Made by a program: the position numbers and the translations under genes. Positions 54,537 through 64,000 of a DNA stretch of 64,000 nt are shown one piece after another. Under the pieces are notes generated by a model. The model was not told the origin of the DNA, did not search any database, and saw only the letters and a list, made by a program, of their open reading frames with translations. The DNA is from Desulfamplus sp. (GTDB lineage Bacteria > Desulfobacterota > Desulfobacteria > Desulfobacterales > Desulfobacteraceae), in assembly GCA_015232555.1 (NCBI GenBank), contig JADFZJ010000007.1, positions 24,731 through 88,730 of the forward strand, written 5' to 3'. The stretch's first letter is position 1. The number at the start of each line of letters is the position of its first letter.

Positions 54537-54636
54537 TATGACAATACTTGACAAAATATTGCCTATTGTTTAATCAGACAAAAATTCTAAAAAATTAAAC
54601 CCTCTAAAACTCTATAAAATTTTTCAAGGAGTCGTA

Positions 54637-57600
54637 GTGAAAAAGCAATACAGATTAACTATAATAATTCTATCTATTATAGTTTTAGGTACCATTGCTT
54701 CATTAATTGTAAAAAAGACATTATTTCGTTCCAGTGGCGAAGTCTATTATGTTGGAATATCAGCACCATTTGAAGAGGCAGACGCTGGTATTGGAGCTGC
54801 AATGGAGCGAGGCATCAGTATTTTAGTTGACGAAGTTAATGCAAATAAAGCTGTGTCAAGGCAGGATTTAGGTCTTGAAATTAAAAAAGCTGACAATCAA
54901 AACAGCCCTGATAGTGCTGTAAAATCTGCTGAAGAGTTGACTAAAATAGATAAAATGGTTGCAGTTGTAGGTTATATGGGGGGGAATGCAGTTAATTCTG
55001 TGAGCAAGATATATGAAAATGCCAATATTCCTCTTATAAATATCTCTTCCACAGAATCTATAATTAATATTAATAAATACCCAAATATATACTCAACAGT
55101 TACAGATTCCAATACAGAAACAGGATTTATTGCCAACTATACTCGAAATGTTCTTGGCAACAAAATAGTCACTATTATTCACTCTTCTTCTGATCATGGC
55201 AGAAAGATGGCTGATACTTTTACATCTGTTTATGCAAGATTTGGAACTCAGATTCACTATACGTATGAATTTAATGCTGAAAATTATGCTGCATCAATAG
55301 GGGATATAATAACTCAGATAAAAGACCTCAAAGATATGGGAACAATATTCTTTGCAGGAGAGACATCTTCTGCTGCAAACTTTGTAGTTCAGGCAAGAGA
55401 TGCCGGCATTAGAAACCTTATAGTCGGAACTAATGTTGTTGCAACCGCAGCCTTTAAAGATACAATTGAAGCCATTGTAAAGGATAAAGATAGAGTTTCT
55501 GCATACACTGACGGTATTTTTATATCTGCTCCTCTTCTTTACGATACAGCAGGAGCAAGGGCGCAGCAGTTTAAAAACCGTTATATGGAAAAATTCGGCA
55601 CTCCGCCTGACTGGCTCGCCGGTTATGCTTATGATGCTGTAAAGAGTTCTTTTATCGGCATATTAAAAGATGAGTCGGAAGACAAGCCTTCAGTAGAGAA
55701 ATGTCGTTTGGCAGTGATAAAATTTCTTAATGCACTAAAAACCCCTGAAAGTGCTGTTGATGGAGTTACTGGTAAAACATGGTTTTCAAATACAGATAAA
55801 CATCAAAAACCTGTGCAGGTTGGTATTTATAATGGATACAATATTATTGCAGCTCCGACTCAGCTTCAGCCGATTAAAAGCAGCAGTTCTGTCAACTATT
55901 TTGAAGAGATAAAAAGCGGCAGAATGCTCTATGTGAACGACCGATTTATGTATAAAACCAATGTTATCTATACTGGTATCGAGGTGCATGAAGTTACAGA
56001 TATCAGCATTGAAAACTACAGTGCAGTAATTGATTTCTCAATATGGTTTCGTTACAGAGGAAAGTTCAATCCAGCAGATGTAGAATTTACAAACGCCATT
56101 GAGGATATTAAAAATTCGGTTAAAGAGATAAAATTGACAGAGCCTGTTGAAAGCACTGAACAGAAAGGAATCTCATTTCAGCTTTATCGTGTAAAGGGGC
56201 GGTTTAATCTTGATTTTTTGGATACTAAATTAAGTTATGGCAAGTGGCTGGTGGGACTTTCATTTCACCATAAAAAATTAAACCGTAACAACGTTATATA
56301 TGTTGTTGATATGCTTGGAATGAATTTTGATAAACAGATGACTCTTAGACGGCAGCTAAACTCAAAAAGGGCACTAAACCCTTCACTTGGCTGGAGAATT
56401 GATGATGCATGGCTGTCACAGCGTATATTTACAACTTCATCTTTTGGTATTCCTATGTATGTGGGTTACGGCTCTACTGACCCTGATTTCTCACGCATTG
56501 ATTACGGTGTTGTGTTTAGCAAAAATAGAATTGATATCAGATCGCTTGTACCTAATGAGTATCTTATTTATATAGGGATATTTGGTTTTATAGGAAGCAT
56601 TGTGGCATGGATTATGGATCAACAGCTTAAAGGTATGTTTTGGCTCACCTCATCTTGGTTTATAAGGATAGCTTTTTGGCCCCTGTTTCTTATCTCGCTC
56701 GGCAATCTATCTGTCAATTATGCAATCAACCATAATATCTCTGTCCACTATATCCGTCAGTTGATAATGGGTTATGATATGTTATGGTGGATAATGGCTG
56801 CAAAGCTTATTAACATTGCTACCGTACGTTTTGTGTGGAATCCTCTTGAAAATAGGACAAAACGCAAAGTTCCCAACCTTATCCGCCATTTTACAGCAGC
56901 GATTGTATATCTATTTGCATTTTTCGCTATTGTTGCATTTGTGTTAAACAAACCACTTACAAGCCTTCTTGCTACAAGCGGTCTTTTTACCATGATTATA
57001 GGATTGGCTCTACAGGGAAATATTGCAAACATATTCTCTGGTATAATCATAAATTTAGAACGCCCTTTTTCAATCGGCGACTGGATTAAAGTTAAAGATA
57101 TTGATGCTGTAAATGTGGTTGATATGACATGGAGAACGGTACGGCTTCAAACGCTTACCAACCATGTTGTTGCAATTCCAAATGGAACTGTTGCAAACGA
57201 AGTGGTTATAAACTACTCAAAAGACAGCATACGTATTGATATACCAATCCAAATTTCTACTCAGCATGAACCAGAAAAAGTTCTAAAATATCTTAAAGAG
57301 GTGCTTGACAGTATTCCAGATGCAACTTCGGTAAAACCAGCTGCACACGCATTTCTTGGTACTAAAGCACTTGGAAATAGCTGGGTTGCAGAGTATGTGG
57401 TTCGTGTATGGGTGTCTAACTGGAAAAATCAATTTGCTTTAAAGGGAAAAATCTGGAGCGCTGTATGGAAAAAATTTACAGAAAACGGAATCTCTTTGGA
57501 TCCGATTGGAGATAATCAGCCTCAATATCTTCTGCCTGCACCATCTGAAGTTGAAAAGAGTTCTTCGATGAGTAAAAATGAGACCAATTTATCAAAATAA
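54637..57600 (+). CDS. Fusion: type I periplasmic (LIVBP-like) ligand-binding domain, beta-rich domain resembling prokaryotic Cys-loop receptor LBD, MscS channel
   Basis: N-term YYVGISAPFEEADAGIGAAMERGISILVDEVNA...VAVVGYMGGNAVNSVSKIYENANIPLINISST; middle YTGIEVHEVTDISIENYSAVIDFSIWFRYRGKFNPADVEFTNAIE; C-term MIIGLALQGNIANIFSGIIINLERPFSIGDWIKV...TLTNHVVAIPNGTVANEVVINYS. Confidence 0.85.
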   Translation: MKKQYRLTIIILSIIVLGTIASLIVKKTLFRSSGEVYYVGISAPFEEADAGIGAAMERGISILVDEVNANKAVSRQDLGLEIKKADNQNSPDSAVKSAEELTKIDKMVAVVGYMGGNAVNSVSKIYENANIPLINISSTESIININKYPNIYSTVTDSNTETGFIANYTRNVLGNKIVTIIHSSSDHGRKMADTFTSVYARFGTQIHYTYEFNAENYAASIGDIITQIKDLKDMGTIFFAGETSSAANFVVQARDAGIRNLIVGTNVVATAAFKDTIEAIVKDKDRVSAYTDGIFISAPLLYDTAGARAQQFKNRYMEKFGTPPDWLAGYAYDAVKSSFIGILKDESEDKPSVEKCRLAVIKFLNALKTPESAVDGVTGKTWFSNTDKHQKPVQVGIYNGYNIIAAPTQLQPIKSSSSVNYFEEIKSGRMLYVNDRFMYKTNVIYTGIEVHEVTDISIENYSAVIDFSIWFRYRGKFNPADVEFTNAIEDIKNSVKEIKLTEPVESTEQKGISFQLYRVKGRFNLDFLDTKLSYGKWLVGLSFHHKKLNRNNVIYVVDMLGMNFDKQMTLRRQLNSKRALNPSLGWRIDDAWLSQRIFTTSSFGIPMYVGYGSTDPDFSRIDYGVVFSKNRIDIRSLVPNEYLIYIGIFGFIGSIVAWIMDQQLKGMFWLTSSWFIRIAFWPLFLISLGNLSVNYAINHNISVHYIRQLIMGYDMLWWIMAAKLINIATVRFVWNPLENRTKRKVPNLIRHFTAAIVYLFAFFAIVAFVLNKPLTSLLATSGLFTMIIGLALQGNIANIFSGIIINLERPFSIGDWIKVKDIDAVNVVDMTWRTVRLQTLTNHVVAIPNGTVANEVVINYSKDSIRIDIPIQISTQHEPEKVLKYLKEVLDSIPDATSVKPAAHAFLGTKALGNSWVAEYVVRVWVSNWKNQFALKGKIWSAVWKKFTENGISLDPIGDNQPQYLLPAPSEVEKSSSMSKNETNLSK

Positions 57601-57691: not shown

Positions 57692-59095
57692 ATGTTTTAC
57701 AAACAGATAAAAATTTCTCTTATATACTTATTATGTTCAATTGCTTTTTTAACTTTCGGGCTGACAGCATCTTTTGCGTCAGAGTCCAAAGATAAAACAG
57801 ATAAAGATAAAACAAATTTAGATTCTAAACACTCTGAATCAACCCTTCCTACCATACCTGAGACATCGGGGAATCAATATTTTTATAATCTTCTTAAACC
57901 CATTCTTACCTCAAATGAACGAATTTTGAGTGCCCAAGCAGGAGTCAGAGCTGCAAAAGAGCAGATACGGGTTAGACTTGGAGCTCGTTATCCAGAACTT
58001 GAACTTACACTTGAGGCAGGCAGAGAAGATGAGTATGAGGAGACAATTCCTGATCAATATAATCAAAGCAAGTTAAAGTTGACCCAGCTTCTTTGGGATT
58101 TTGGCAAAACTGATGCAGCAGTTGACAAGGCAAGACGTCAGCTTGTTGAACAGGAGTTAAACCTTAAAAAGACCCGCCAGCAGCTTATAGTTGATGCAGC
58201 CACAGCGTATCAGAGACTTCACAGGGCATACGTGGTGCTTCAGTATTCTATCGAATCAGAGGCTAACATCCGCCGCCAGACTGGTCTTGAGGAGATTCGT
58301 GTTGCTGAAGGTTATGGTTATACAACTGATGTTCTTCAATCTAAATCACAGCTTGCAGGTGCTATGTCAAGACGGCAGCGAAATGAAGGCGAGTATGGCT
58401 TAGCAGAGAGTGCATATTTGGAAATTTTTGATGCTCTTCCAGAAGATATCTCTAAGATGCAGCCGATTGAGCCTTATAAGATGCTCTCTGTTCCTGAAAA
58501 TCTTGAGTCAGTTGTTAATATTGCAAAAAATAATAACGTTGAAATTTTGTTAGCAAAGAATAGAGAGTCTGTTGTTGAAACTGATGTAAGAGCCGAAAAA
58601 AATAAGGCACTCTTCCCAGACATTGAGTTTGCACTTGAAGGAGATGTTTCAGACAATTACAACGCAACATTTGGAAATGTCAAAGAGTATAAGGCAAGCG
58701 TGATGCTTAGAAAAAGGATAAATTTAGGGTTAATAGAAAATAATAAGATAAGAGCTGCAAGAGAGACAATGCTAAAAGAGAAGAATTTGGTTGCAGACAA
58801 AGAGAAAGTTATTGAAAAGACAGCCCGAAGTGCATGGCAGCGGCTCAAAACAGCAGAAATAACAACTCAAACTTTAAGCGAGCAGGCAAATTTGACAGCA
58901 GCATTTTTGAAACTTGCAAGAGAGGAGAGAGATTTAGGCAACCGCTCATTAATGGACATTCTTGCTGGTGAAACATCTCTTATAAATGCTAAAAGTGATA
59001 GTTATGCTGCAAAAATAGATATCTCTTTTGGAGTGTTTGCCCTGCTTGAAATTATGGGAAATATAGATATAGAGATGTTTAACGAAAAGGAGTAA
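57692..59095 (+). CDS. TolC-family outer membrane efflux/secretion protein
   Basis: Signal peptide; ERILSAQAGVRAAKEQIRVRLGARYPELELTLEAGRE, TQLLWDFGKTDAAVDKARRQL. Confidence 0.9.
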   Translation: MFYKQIKISLIYLLCSIAFLTFGLTASFASESKDKTDKDKTNLDSKHSESTLPTIPETSGNQYFYNLLKPILTSNERILSAQAGVRAAKEQIRVRLGARYPELELTLEAGREDEYEETIPDQYNQSKLKLTQLLWDFGKTDAAVDKARRQLVEQELNLKKTRQQLIVDAATAYQRLHRAYVVLQYSIESEANIRRQTGLEEIRVAEGYGYTTDVLQSKSQLAGAMSRRQRNEGEYGLAESAYLEIFDALPEDISKMQPIEPYKMLSVPENLESVVNIAKNNNVEILLAKNRESVVETDVRAEKNKALFPDIEFALEGDVSDNYNATFGNVKEYKASVMLRKRINLGLIENNKIRAARETMLKEKNLVADKEKVIEKTARSAWQRLKTAEITTQTLSEQANLTAAFLKLAREERDLGNRSLMDILAGETSLINAKSDSYAAKIDISFGVFALLEIMGNIDIEMFNEKE

Positions 59096-59108: not shown

Positions 59109-60893
59109 ATGAATGAACTGCTGCTTCGCCTGAAAAATCACCCTGTTATTACAATTGAACTTATCGTTGCCTCGTTTTTTGTCAACTTTCTTGGTCTTGC
59201 ATCTTCTCTTTACATTATCCAGCTTCTCAACCGTTATGTATCTCATGGCGTTGATGCTACTCTATACACACTTACAATTGGTGTATGTATAGCTATCCTG
59301 CTTGAATTTGGATTTAGACGAGCACGCTCATCTCTTGCTACATATCTTGGAGCTAAAAGAAACTATGAGTTGATGATAGGAACTTTTGGAATCTTAACTA
59401 ACGGCAAGATGAAATTTTTAGATAGGATTCCGCAGCGTCTTAGACAGGAGATCGTAAAAGGGACAAATACAGTTGAAGATGCTTATAAATCTTCTAACAT
59501 AGCAGCGATTTTCGATCTTCCGTTTGCATTCATTTTTATAGCTGTCTTAACATGGCTCTCATCAACTCTTAGCATAATAACGCTCATCTTCATGCTTTTG
59601 ATATTCATACTCGGCATAATAAGCAGACAGGTAGTTAAAAAAAATCTTAACAAAGTTACAGAGGCATCTGTAAAGGGTAATGGGCTTTTCAGCACTGCAA
59701 ATCAGTCGTTGGACACTGTCCGCCTTTTTGACAATAATCAGTTTATGCTCAATGAATGGGGTAAAAACTGCAATGAGTTTTTAGATAAAAGAGCAGCAGT
59801 ATCAGAACAGCAGGACCTTATCCAGAGCATTACCCGCAGTGCCCAATCATTGATGAGCGTTGCAATTTATGCGGCTGGTGCAGTTCTTACTGTAAACGGA
59901 GATATTACAGTCGGCTCTCTTATTGGTGCTAACATTCTTGCTATGCGTGCTCTTGGACCTATCAGCCGTTTTACATATCTTGGAGAGGCTTTTACTATGG
60001 CAGAGCAAGCTCTTGAACGGATAAAACAGTTTGGGCAAATTGAGACTGAACGTCAAGGAGGTATTGCCCTTAAAAGCTATCAAGGACGGATTCAGTTTAA
60101 AGATGTGGCTTTTACTCATCAAGGCATGTCCCACCCGCTGTTTGAATCTCTTGATCTTGAAATTCTACCCGGTGCGGTTCTTGTGGTTACTGGAGAGAAT
60201 GGAACAGGCAAAACTACGCTTTGCAGACTTATTGCTGGTCTTCTTGAGCCGGACAGAGGACAGATTCTTGCTGACGGGGTGGATCTGCGGCAATTATCTC
60301 CTGCATGGTGGAGATTACAGCTTACATATATGCCGCAAGATGTACAGTTTCTGCCTGCGTCAATTAGAGAGAACCTTTTAGCAGCAGTATCCTATTTTAA
60401 TGCTAAGAGAGCAGATGTAGATTTCAATGCAGTGAAAGCATCTGTAGATAAAGTATCTGATAATAAAATTGAAAATTCTAATTTGTCGGAGTCTGAAGAA
60501 CATGCGGTTGTAAATTTAAATAAGATAATCAAAGATGCAGGATTGATAAATTTTATTGATCAGAGCCAGCAAGGTCTTGATACTCAAATTATAAACAACG
60601 GAGCAAACCTTTCAACTGGTCATCGTAAACGGCTTGTACTTGCAAGGGCATTGGCAGTGGGCGGCAGATTGGTTCTTTTTGACGAGCCGACCGAAGGGCT
60701 TGACAGACAAGGCTGCAATACTATCTATTCACTGCTTGTAGAGCTTTCAAAAAAGGGGCATACCATGATCATATTTACGCAAGACTCCAATATAATCAGA
60801 GGTGCAACACGTATTCTTGATCTAAACAGCAAACCTGTTCCCAAAATAGTTATTTCGGATCCTAAAACTTTGGAAAGTAAATCGAATGGTTAA
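59109..60893 (+). CDS. Type I secretion ABC transporter, permease/ATPase (no N-terminal C39-like domain seen)
   Basis: TMs; GENGTGKTTLCRLIAG, LSTGHRKRLVLARAL, LVLFDEPTEGLD. Confidence 0.92.
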   Translation: MNELLLRLKNHPVITIELIVASFFVNFLGLASSLYIIQLLNRYVSHGVDATLYTLTIGVCIAILLEFGFRRARSSLATYLGAKRNYELMIGTFGILTNGKMKFLDRIPQRLRQEIVKGTNTVEDAYKSSNIAAIFDLPFAFIFIAVLTWLSSTLSIITLIFMLLIFILGIISRQVVKKNLNKVTEASVKGNGLFSTANQSLDTVRLFDNNQFMLNEWGKNCNEFLDKRAAVSEQQDLIQSITRSAQSLMSVAIYAAGAVLTVNGDITVGSLIGANILAMRALGPISRFTYLGEAFTMAEQALERIKQFGQIETERQGGIALKSYQGRIQFKDVAFTHQGMSHPLFESLDLEILPGAVLVVTGENGTGKTTLCRLIAGLLEPDRGQILADGVDLRQLSPAWWRLQLTYMPQDVQFLPASIRENLLAAVSYFNAKRADVDFNAVKASVDKVSDNKIENSNLSESEEHAVVNLNKIIKDAGLINFIDQSQQGLDTQIINNGANLSTGHRKRLVLARALAVGGRLVLFDEPTEGLDRQGCNTIYSLLVELSKKGHTMIIFTQDSNIIRGATRILDLNSKPVPKIVISDPKTLESKSNG

Positions 60894-60932: not shown

Positions 60933-62216
60933 ATGGTTAAAATTATATCTCATAATAAAACTGTAAAGAGCCAGTTTTTTCTTGTGATGGCAATGTTTAC
61001 AGTCATCTCTCTTGTTGTATGGTCTGCTTATGGAGAGCTTGATGTTGTAAGTTTTGCTCCTGGTGAAGTTGTTCCATCGAGCAGGGTTAAGACGATTCAG
61101 CATCTTGAAGGCGGGATAATCAGAGAGATTTTGGTTAAAGAAGGAGAAAAGGTAAAATCTGGGCAGTCTTTGGTAATTTTAGAATCTACAAGCAGCAATG
61201 CTGATGTTGCAGAGCAGACTATCCATCTGAAATCTCTTGAAATAACAATTATGAGACTCAATGCTGAAATAAGAGGAGAGAAAAATCTTATAATACCTGA
61301 AGAGATGAAAAAATCAGCACCAGATTTGGCAAGAAATGCAGTTGCAATGTTTCAGACAAGACAGCAGAGAGTTGAGAATCAGATAAGGGTGCAAAAAGAG
61401 CTTATAAATCAGTATAAATTTCAGATTGAGGAGATAAATGCAAGGCTTGAGGGCAATACAAGCATGAAAAATTTTGTTGAAGAGCAGGTAGGAATAAGCC
61501 AGAAACTTCTTCAGCACAGCCTTTCAAATCGTATGAACCACCTTGATCTATTAAAACAGCTTGCTGACATAAAAGGTCAGCAAAGAGTTGATCAAGCATC
61601 TTTAAAAAAGATTGCAGCATCAATTAAAGAGGCTGAAGGTCGTCTTGCTCTTGTTAAAAATACATTTATTGAAGAGGCACAAGATGAGCTTCGCGAGGTT
61701 CAAAGAACAGCCCAGATAATCTATGAGCGTTTAAATAAAAATGAGGACAGCTTAAGAAGAACGGTTCTTCGCTCTCCTGTAGATGGAACTATAAAATCTC
61801 TTCTTTTTGTAACTATCGGCGGAATAGTTCCCCCGGGCGGTGCAGTAGCAGAAGTTGTTCCAATAGATGATCGTCTGATTATTGAAGCCCGCCTTCCAAT
61901 TGGAGATATAGGCTATGTTCATACAGGACAGCCAGTTAATGTTCGTCTCACTTCAGCAGACGGGTCAAGATTTGGTCATATCAACGGAGAGGTTATACAC
62001 ATAAGCCCAGACTCTACAATATTAGAGGAAGGACCGCCATTTTATAAAATCAAAATAACTACAGAAAAAGATTACTTTGGCAAATCTGAAAAACCATACA
62101 ATCTTTTTCCGGGAATGCTTATGCAATGCAGTATTATAACCGATAAAAGAACTGTAATTGAGTATCTTCTTTCACCATTTCTGCTATCCTTTGAAACAGC
62201 CCTGCACGAAAGATAA
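60933..62216 (+). CDS. HlyD-family membrane fusion protein
   Basis: SSRVKTIQHLEGGIIREILVKEGEKVKSGQSLVILES; RSPVDGTIKSLLFVTIGGIVPPGGAVAEVVP. Confidence 0.93.
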   Translation: MVKIISHNKTVKSQFFLVMAMFTVISLVVWSAYGELDVVSFAPGEVVPSSRVKTIQHLEGGIIREILVKEGEKVKSGQSLVILESTSSNADVAEQTIHLKSLEITIMRLNAEIRGEKNLIIPEEMKKSAPDLARNAVAMFQTRQQRVENQIRVQKELINQYKFQIEEINARLEGNTSMKNFVEEQVGISQKLLQHSLSNRMNHLDLLKQLADIKGQQRVDQASLKKIAASIKEAEGRLALVKNTFIEEAQDELREVQRTAQIIYERLNKNEDSLRRTVLRSPVDGTIKSLLFVTIGGIVPPGGAVAEVVPIDDRLIIEARLPIGDIGYVHTGQPVNVRLTSADGSRFGHINGEVIHISPDSTILEEGPPFYKIKITTEKDYFGKSEKPYNLFPGMLMQCSIITDKRTVIEYLLSPFLLSFETALHER

Positions 62217-62230
62217 ACAAGGAGGAAACC

Positions 62231-64000
62231 ATGCCTGAGAACAACAATAATTTATCAGACAGCACACAGCAGAGTTCTGATTCAAATACGCAACCGCCTG
62301 CTACAGACAGTGGTGGACTCTTCGATACTCTTTTGATAAAACTAATGGAGAGCACCAGCACTGGCTCTGAATCTAAACTTGCCGAGATTAGAAAAATTGT
62401 CATGGATCACGTTGTTGCTCAAGGAGGCACTCCTAAAGAGGTTGAAGCCGCAGCTAATAACTTCATGGACAAGCTCTCAAATGATCTCAATCAAGGAATC
62501 TCACCAGAAGAGTCATTACGCCAAGCTGTGAATGAAGCCCAACTCTCTGTTGTTCAGGAGAAGATTGAACAACAGATTGAATCTGAATCAAAAGAAGATA
62601 GTCTAACCTCAGCACTTGCATCTGGTGAGAATGTTGATAGTGAAATAGATAAACATCTACCCGAAGGTGTATCTAAAGAGAGCGATGCTGCTGGTGAATT
62701 GATGTCAGATTTGCAGCGATCGCTTGATTCAGGAAAATCTACATCAGATGCACTCTTTGAGGCACAAACTGCATTAGAACAGAATATTCAGGCAGAATCT
62801 TCAACTCAAGGCGAGATCGGCGATGCTGGCAAATTGGTGATGTCGCTTGCTAATGGTGAAAATATTGATCAGGTTCTGGGTAAGTTTACAGAAGGAATGT
62901 CTCCTGATCAAATAGCCACGTTTATTGATGCTTTTATGAAATCTTTGGCATCAGGAGAATCGGCAGAACAGGCTGTTGAGTCTGCTAATGCTAAAGTAGA
63001 AGCTATGGATAGTGCCCAAAGTGCGATTCAAGGAGAGATGACTCCAGATGCAAAACTTGCTGCTGCTCTTGCCTCTGGTGAAAATGTCGCTGAAACTTTA
63101 TCCAACATTCAACAGGGGGGCGATTCCGAAGTTTTTGCACAAGCTATGACACAGGCACTTGCAGAAGGCTCGTCTGCTGCTGATGCTTTAAATCAGGCTC
63201 AAAGTGAATCTTCTCAGATGGCAGCCGCTGCTGGTGCTGTTCAATCAGAGTCATCAGGAAACAGTCAAGAGCTTCTTGCTGCTCTTGCCTCTGGTGAAAA
63301 TGTCGCAGCAATAGTTAATTCTATTATTCCGTCTGGTGCAGATGTCTCTCCTGAAGCTGCTGCTGCAATGGCTCAAGCCTTTCAGGAGAGTTTGATAAAT
63401 GCTTTAGAGAACGGCGGTAACGTTGAAAATGCTGTAACTCAAGCTGTTGAGGCAGCTTCGACCGTTATGGAGACTTTGGCAAATGTAGAGTCTGGCACGG
63501 TCAGTTCAGAAGCGGCACTTCTATCAGCACTTGCATCTGGTGAAAATGTCGCGGAAGTTGTTAGCAATCTTGTTCAAGCATTACAAGAGAACAGCAGAGC
63601 TGATAGCGGTGAAGCCCTGAATACTGCAAGTTTTGAACAGGCTTTGACTCAGTCTCTTTCGTCAGGAGAGAACATTGAGAATGCTGTCAGCAGTGCAGCT
63701 CAGTCTGTTTTATCTGAAACTGCTGCAGAAAATAGTGTCCAGACAGAAACTCAAAATGAGCTTTTAACCGCATTAGCTTCAGGAGAAAATGTAGCTGAAG
63801 TAATATCATCAATAGTCTCAGCGTCTGGTCAAGAAAATCTTTCCTCTGATTCAGGAGTTGTGAATACAGAAGCATTTCAACAGGCGTTAGTAGAATCTTT
63901 AGCTGCAGGAGAAAATATTGAGACAGCAATTGCTAATGCAGTCGAAGCAAGTCAGAATTCTGAAAATCAAAATACCCAAAATACACAAATTTCGGCTCAA
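62231..64000 (+). CDS. Large repetitive putative type I secretion substrate, 3' end outside window
   Basis: Not in ORF track because no stop in window. RBS ggaggaaacc then MPENNNNLSDSTQQSSDSNTQPP...; alternating repeats xALASGENVAEVV and SLSSGENIENAVSSA to the window end. Confidence 0.85.
   Translation, partial: MPENNNNLSDSTQQSSDSNTQPPATDSGGLFDTLLIKLMESTSTGSESKLAEIRKIVMDHVVAQGGTPKEVEAAANNFMDKLSNDLNQGISPEESLRQAVNEAQLSVVQEKIEQQIESESKEDSLTSALASGENVDSEIDKHLPEGVSKESDAAGELMSDLQRSLDSGKSTSDALFEAQTALEQNIQAESSTQGEIGDAGKLVMSLANGENIDQVLGKFTEGMSPDQIATFIDAFMKSLASGESAEQAVESANAKVEAMDSAQSAIQGEMTPDAKLAAALASGENVAETLSNIQQGGDSEVFAQAMTQALAEGSSAADALNQAQSESSQMAAAAGAVQSESSGNSQELLAALASGENVAAIVNSIIPSGADVSPEAAAAMAQAFQESLINALENGGNVENAVTQAVEAASTVMETLANVESGTVSSEAALLSALASGENVAEVVSNLVQALQENSRADSGEALNTASFEQALTQSLSSGENIENAVSSAAQSVLSETAAENSVQTETQNELLTALASGENVAEVISSIVSASGQENLSSDSGVVNTEAFQQALVESLAAGENIETAIANAVEASQNSENQNTQNTQISAQ

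Follow-up and report, generated by a model that had tools for sequence, protein, structure and literature searches.

A single open reading frame in Desulfamplus sp. raises the question of whether a type I periplasmic binding (PBP-I) domain, a Cys-loop-receptor LBD and an MscS pore can belong to one polypeptide, and, if so, how such a protein arose and what it might do. The initial annotation of the locus had read it as just such a three-part receptor-channel. Here we analyze this gene, its relatives and its neighbourhood; all coordinates are positions in a 64,000-nt stretch of Desulfamplus sp. contig JADFZJ010000007.1, referred to as the window.

The gene, its domains and its family

The gene lies at 54637-57600 on the plus strand and runs from a GTG start through 987 codons without an internal stop. 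Its parts are:

54626..54631, plus strand: Shine-Dalgarno-like AAGGAG ahead of the GTG start (from the sequence)
54637..57600, plus strand: whole gene, PBP-I / Cys-loop-type LBD / MscS receptor-channel, 987 aa (ORF, Pfam, orthologues)
54655..54711, plus strand: N-terminal hydrophobic segment, residues 7-25 (Kyte-Doolittle)
54748..55788, plus strand: type I periplasmic binding (LIVBP-like) domain, residues 38-384 (Pfam PF13458, E 8e-32; LIVBP-type PDB structures)
55924..56535, plus strand: Cys-loop-receptor-type LBD, residues 430-633 (profile comparisons, PDB and Foldseek matches)
56218..56256, plus strand: Pro-loop position (beta6-beta7), residues 528-540 (alignment)
56431..56502, plus strand: beta9-beta10 (loop C) region, residues 599-622 (alignment)
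56560..56829, plus strand: three extra TM helices before the MscS core, residues ~642-660, 675-693 and 706-731 (hydropathy, positive-inside rule, YnaI matches)
56857..57501, plus strand: MscS core, residues 741-955 (Pfam PF00924, PF21082; PDB MscS/YnaI matches)
56956..57051, plus strand: pore-lining TM3 region with the GLALQG...N motif, residues 774-805 (alignment to E. coli MscS)

The hydrophobic segment is either a signal peptide or a membrane anchor. The N-terminal domain belongs to the PBP-I family, with Pfam placing Peripla_BP_6 at residues 38-384 (8e-32), close to the residues (about 34-410) proposed in the initial annotation. MS_channel_2nd (796-862, 3e-17) and MS_channel_3rd (866-953, 8e-7) follow at the other end, and in the PDB the N-terminal part matches LIVBP-type structures, the C-terminal part MscS or YnaI, in agreement with the earlier reading of the last third as an MscS channel. 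The middle of the protein gives no Pfam match above cut-off.

Eight further genomes of the genus (G001, G002 and G004-G009) contain three-part orthologues with intact frames at 57-79% identity, and several of the genomes with orthologues carry the name Desulfamplus; in a ninth (G003) the gene is present as two pieces instead, covering residues 2-766 and 755-978. Homologues ∼30-33% identical across almost the entire length are found in other families of the order, and tblastn with the window protein retrieves nine Azospirillum plasmid records at 94-95% coverage and 34-36% identity. Because the orthologues span all three parts as intact frames, the single-polypeptide architecture claimed at the outset is real, and it occurs in two phyla. 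The initial annotation had itself raised the concern that an assembly frameshift might join two genes, and the genome of the window is indeed a draft of 106 contigs; such an artefact is ruled out, with a probability that we consider negligible, by intact full-length homologues in the eight genomes of the genus, in many genera of the order and in complete Azospirillum plasmid sequences.

The window gene is thus one member of a large family and no singleton. A profile of the MscS-type middle domain (A3, described below) matches 40 of 292 genomes sampled from the order, 27 of which contain an MscS-type protein as judged by a domain check and open-frame length. A 396-genome sample of the phylum yields five matching genomes, two of these within the order; in the three outside it the matches are weak and fall in short frames of 367-404 aa, which are not MscS-types. 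The phage records searched gave no match. Many MscS-types of the order end in a cNMP-binding domain (PF00027) after MscS, which the window protein and its orthologues lack. The genome of the window also encodes a second MscS-type paralogue (32% identity, L045:6150-9068 in G000:C13), which lacks the cNMP domain and is flanked by IF-2 and by a fusion of a cNMP-binding domain with a Na:sulfate symporter. The PBP-LBD-MscS protein of Azospirillum B510 (L124, WP_012976639.1) is annotated as an ABC transporter substrate-binding protein only.

The middle domain and its coupling residues

The identity of the middle domain had been guessed from the order of its motifs (∼55960-56550). A route to a homology-based assignment is provided by proteins of ∼710-880 aa, also present in the order, which share residues 1 to ∼560-650 with the window protein and then diverge. 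The diverging ends were read by eye as M1-M4, one of these proteins (L053) has Neur_chan_memb above the Pfam cut-off, and another (L055) is matched by GLIC over both LBD and TM regions (E 0.002); on these grounds they are PBP-fused pLGICs. Fusions of this kind have been described (Tasneem et al., PMC549065), as the initial annotation had noted. Adjacent PBP-pLGIC gene pairs were seen in several genomes of the order (L055, L057, L058, L060, L062 and L066).

Middle-domain alignments were built for the MscS-types (A3) and for the pLGIC-types (A4), with a pair trimmed of M1 (A7 and A6). The hhalign comparison of A3 with A4 gives an E-value of 5.4e-62, and without M1 (A7 against A6) the probability is still 100 and the E-value 4.9e-60. 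The A4 profile, M1 included, matches an ELIC/GABA-A chimera (2.6e-10) and GLIC (∼2e-6) in the PDB, and an LBD-only profile of both types matches ELIC (2e-4) and GLIC (3e-3); this last profile retrieves 97 sequences at E up to 0.1, the best 60 of which are all pLGICs (ELIC, GLIC and chimeras). The MscS-type profile alone finds no PDB match at E up to 1, and the assignment was therefore built via the pLGIC-type relatives and rechecked without M1. A3 alone does find a protein elsewhere in the phylum (L115), which Pfam puts in Neur_chan_LBD above cut-off. The LBD profile also picks out two further short proteins elsewhere in the phylum, neither of which matches the pLGIC TM profile. One (L117) is without a Pfam match; the other (L116) has only a weak Neur_chan_memb match, although phmmer pairs it with TM chains of GABA-A and glycine receptors.

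Structure prediction, the check proposed with the original guess, points the same way. An AlphaFold model of the middle domain from seven sequences is of low confidence (pLDDT 51.5), and the 50 Foldseek matches listed for it are all Cys-loop receptors or AChBP, at TM-scores of ∼0.3-0.45. The full-length model (pLDDT 41.8) is too poor for use; the models are weak because only seven close orthologues were usable. On homology, then, the middle domain (∼430-633) is a Cys-loop-receptor LBD, and Pfam together with the profile comparisons bears out the proposed sequence of PBP-I, Cys-loop LBD and MscS pore. That it might be an unrelated beta-sandwich merely resembling this LBD could be argued from the missing Pfam match in the window protein and the missing direct PDB match of the MscS-type profile, but we consider this very improbable, given that the comparison with LBDs preceding pLGIC TMs reaches an E-value of 4.9e-60 and that the LBD-only PDB matches listed are pLGICs without exception.

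The protein thus has the Cys-loop-type LBD of a pLGIC, while the four-helix M1-M4 pore is absent and an MscS core stands in its place. The consequences for the LBD-pore interface were followed in sets reduced to at most 80% identity (27 pLGIC-types and 37 MscS-types). Across the superfamily, a Pro, an Asp and an Arg are among the few conserved residues of this interface, the Pro alone being invariant, and a conserved Trp belongs to the core of the extracellular domain (Jaiteh et al., PMC4795631, from which pLGIC motif frequencies at the Pro-loop were also taken). The Pro-loop Pro is present in 27/27 pLGIC-types and in 5/37 MscS-types; it is absent from the window gene (S533), where SYGKW (YGKWLVG) replaces the canonical F/YPxD, and most MscS-types have FGxHxxG or YGxHxxG at this position. 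Two places past the Pro, an acidic residue occurs in 24 of the 27 pLGIC-types (Asp or Glu) against four of the 37 MscS-types (Asp), and the pre-M1 Arg in 25/27 against 1/37. The Arg noticed earlier just before the first TM does exist, if R635 is the one meant, and is invariant in A3 (27 MscS-type sequences), but it is not the pre-M1 Arg of pLGICs, the aligned position being K629. In contrast, the beta9 Trp is kept in both types (25/27 and 33/37), as are S619 and D558 (each 26/27 and 37/37), and the GxP and FSR motifs of the loop C region are common to the window protein and many pLGIC-type relatives. The LBD-to-pore coupling residues have been lost in the MscS-types, while core residues stayed.

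The pore, its topology and its origin

The C-terminal part has both the beta domain and the C-terminal domain of MscS above Pfam cut-offs, and its GLALQG motif aligns to E. coli MscS. Five TM helices follow the LBD, including the extra three; the first two of these were identified by hydropathy, while the third falls below the hydropathy threshold and was read by eye. The YnaI matches begin at about residue 676. With five TMs and with the basic loops facing the cytoplasm, the PBP and the LBD are placed in the periplasm. Matched MscS relatives in the PDB mostly have seven chains or multiples of seven, and matched ELIC and GLIC entries mostly five or ten. This mismatch of symmetries (five for the LBD, seven for MscS) counts against the explanation favoured below; an LBD on this pore would either sit in a seven-fold ring or be uncoupled from the ring symmetry.

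LBD trees of 77 and 87 rows (SH-aLRT support only, midpoint root, no firm outgroup) place all MscS-types in one clade (SH-aLRT 99), and a single change suffices to explain the pore labels, so that one pore exchange is indicated, with the loss of the coupling residues coming after it. Since the rows nearest the midpoint root are pLGIC-types or short relatives, the direction of this exchange would be from pLGIC to MscS. The best overall explanation, and one we think probable, is that the receptor-channel arose from a PBP-I-fused pLGIC in which an MscS-type pore took the place of the four-helix one.

We know of no such LBD in the MscS superfamily and of no bCNG channel with a PBP-I domain or a Cys-loop LBD, and in the open-access literature we found no description of an LBD-MscS fusion. 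Members of the MscS superfamily, including YnaI, share with the window protein the beta and C-terminal domains, the GLALQG of TM3 and extra N-terminal TMs, but lack the large two-domain periplasmic sensor that it adds in front. The bCNG channels, as summarized in PMC4560390 (citing Caldwell et al. 2010), combine MscS with a cNMP-binding domain; on that description, the many relatives in the order that end in PF00027 resemble them, whereas the window protein does not. Prokaryotic pLGICs with PBP-I (PMC549065, PMC4795631) have, like the window protein, PBP-I followed by a homologous LBD, and the bacterial forms preserve the LBD together with a four-TM core (Tasneem et al., PMC549065); the window protein differs in having an MscS pore and lacking the Pro-loop Pro and the pre-M1 Arg. 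DeCLIC (PMC12664993, PMC9897478) likewise comes from a deltaproteobacterium and carries additional periplasmic domains N-terminal to a Cys-loop LBD, but the lobes of its NTD resemble other domains (of a calcium-binding type) rather than PBP-I, and it has the pore of a pLGIC.

Secretion neighbourhood and possible function

Downstream of the channel gene, the window continues with:

57692..59095, plus strand: TolC-like outer-membrane protein, beside the channel in Desulfamplus and Azospirillum (Pfam OEP; synteny)
59109..60893, plus strand: type I secretion ABC transporter (Pfam PF00664, PF00005; synteny)
60933..62216, plus strand: HlyD-type membrane fusion protein (Pfam PF13437; synteny)
62231..64000, plus strand: large repetitive protein, ORF open at the end of window and contig (partial similarity to Azospirillum giant proteins)

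Neighbourhoods were compared by blastp using ORFs of at least 100 aa in flanks of a few kb and of unequal length. The full TolC-ABC-HlyD set is present at seven Desulfamplus-type loci (the window, L001, L002 with its twin L120, L003, L005, L006 and L127), and at L004, L007 and L024 the TolC gene is seen before the contigs end. The full set also accompanies the channel at all four Azospirillum loci examined (B510, Sp7, oryzae and argentinense), arranged in two further gene orders. At the B510 locus there is a 4-bp overlap between the channel gene and the ABC gene, and a giant gene with VCBS domains is divergently oriented. None of the TolC, ABC or HlyD genes occurs within the flanks compared (a few kb, unequal) at 21 MscS-type loci outside the Desulfamplus/Azospirillum clade. 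The clustering of channel and type I secretion genes thus spans two phyla within a single clade; the Desulfamplus and Azospirillum genes form this clade with support of 100, and because the link is confined to it, the two phyla are not independent. The protein at 62231..64000 is a possible secreted substrate. It has SGENVAEV-type repeats, and its counterparts beside L002 and L003 are 63% and 62% identical to it, respectively. The giant proteins of Desulfamplus and Azospirillum show weak similarity in repetitive stretches, and in G001 no giant gene was found beside the channel.

In this clade, the channel probably acts in the service of the adjacent type I secretion system or of its surface protein; it might, for instance, couple secretion to a periplasmic signal. 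The shared neighbourhood in two phyla and the 4-bp overlap in B510 would also suit a transceptor or scaffold, in which ligand bound by the PBP or LBD would govern, through contact and not through ion flow, whether the giant protein is secreted or kept at the surface; we rate this as quite unlikely, since MscS-type relatives without nearby secretion genes are common and the pore motif GLALQG is intact.

We favour a mechanism involving ion flow, in which the protein would assemble as a heptamer by analogy with solved MscS channels, and both periplasmic domains would bind small, possibly amino-acid-like, ligands. Ligand binding would move the LBD ring and, via the inserted N-terminal TM helices, bias opening of the MscS pore, on which tension and ligand may both act. 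The cNMP domain, a second ligand module in many relatives, counts in favour of such a receptor. The loss of the pLGIC coupling residues, and a TM region matching YnaI, a low-conductance mechanosensitive channel, could instead mean that the LBD and PBP were inherited but do not gate, leaving a tension-gated osmotic valve in which the periplasmic part acts as a structural spacer or on behalf of some other partner. This appears unlikely, as among six orthologues the identity of the LBD (81%) is close to that of the pore core (82%) and above that of the PBP (70%), core positions are kept family-wide, and new conserved positions (FGxHxxG, R635) arise in place of the old. For a natural class of ligand-gated channels, in which a Cys-loop LBD acts via a new coupling interface on an MscS pore of seven-fold symmetry, with some members under additional intracellular cNMP control and one clade devoted to type I secretion, we judge the chances to be about even.

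The pLGIC literature (PMC549065, PMC4795631) pairs the Cys-loop LBD with its own four-helix pore. Here, it appears that nature has transferred the receptor half of such a nerve-type channel to a pore of an unrelated kind, and the MscS-type family raises the question of whether the LBD functions in a seven-fold ring. A lineage that keeps the LBD with another pore, without the Pro and its interface neighbours, would separate residues required for folding from those required for coupling to the pore, and homologues in the cultivable species Azospirillum brasilense make the family testable.
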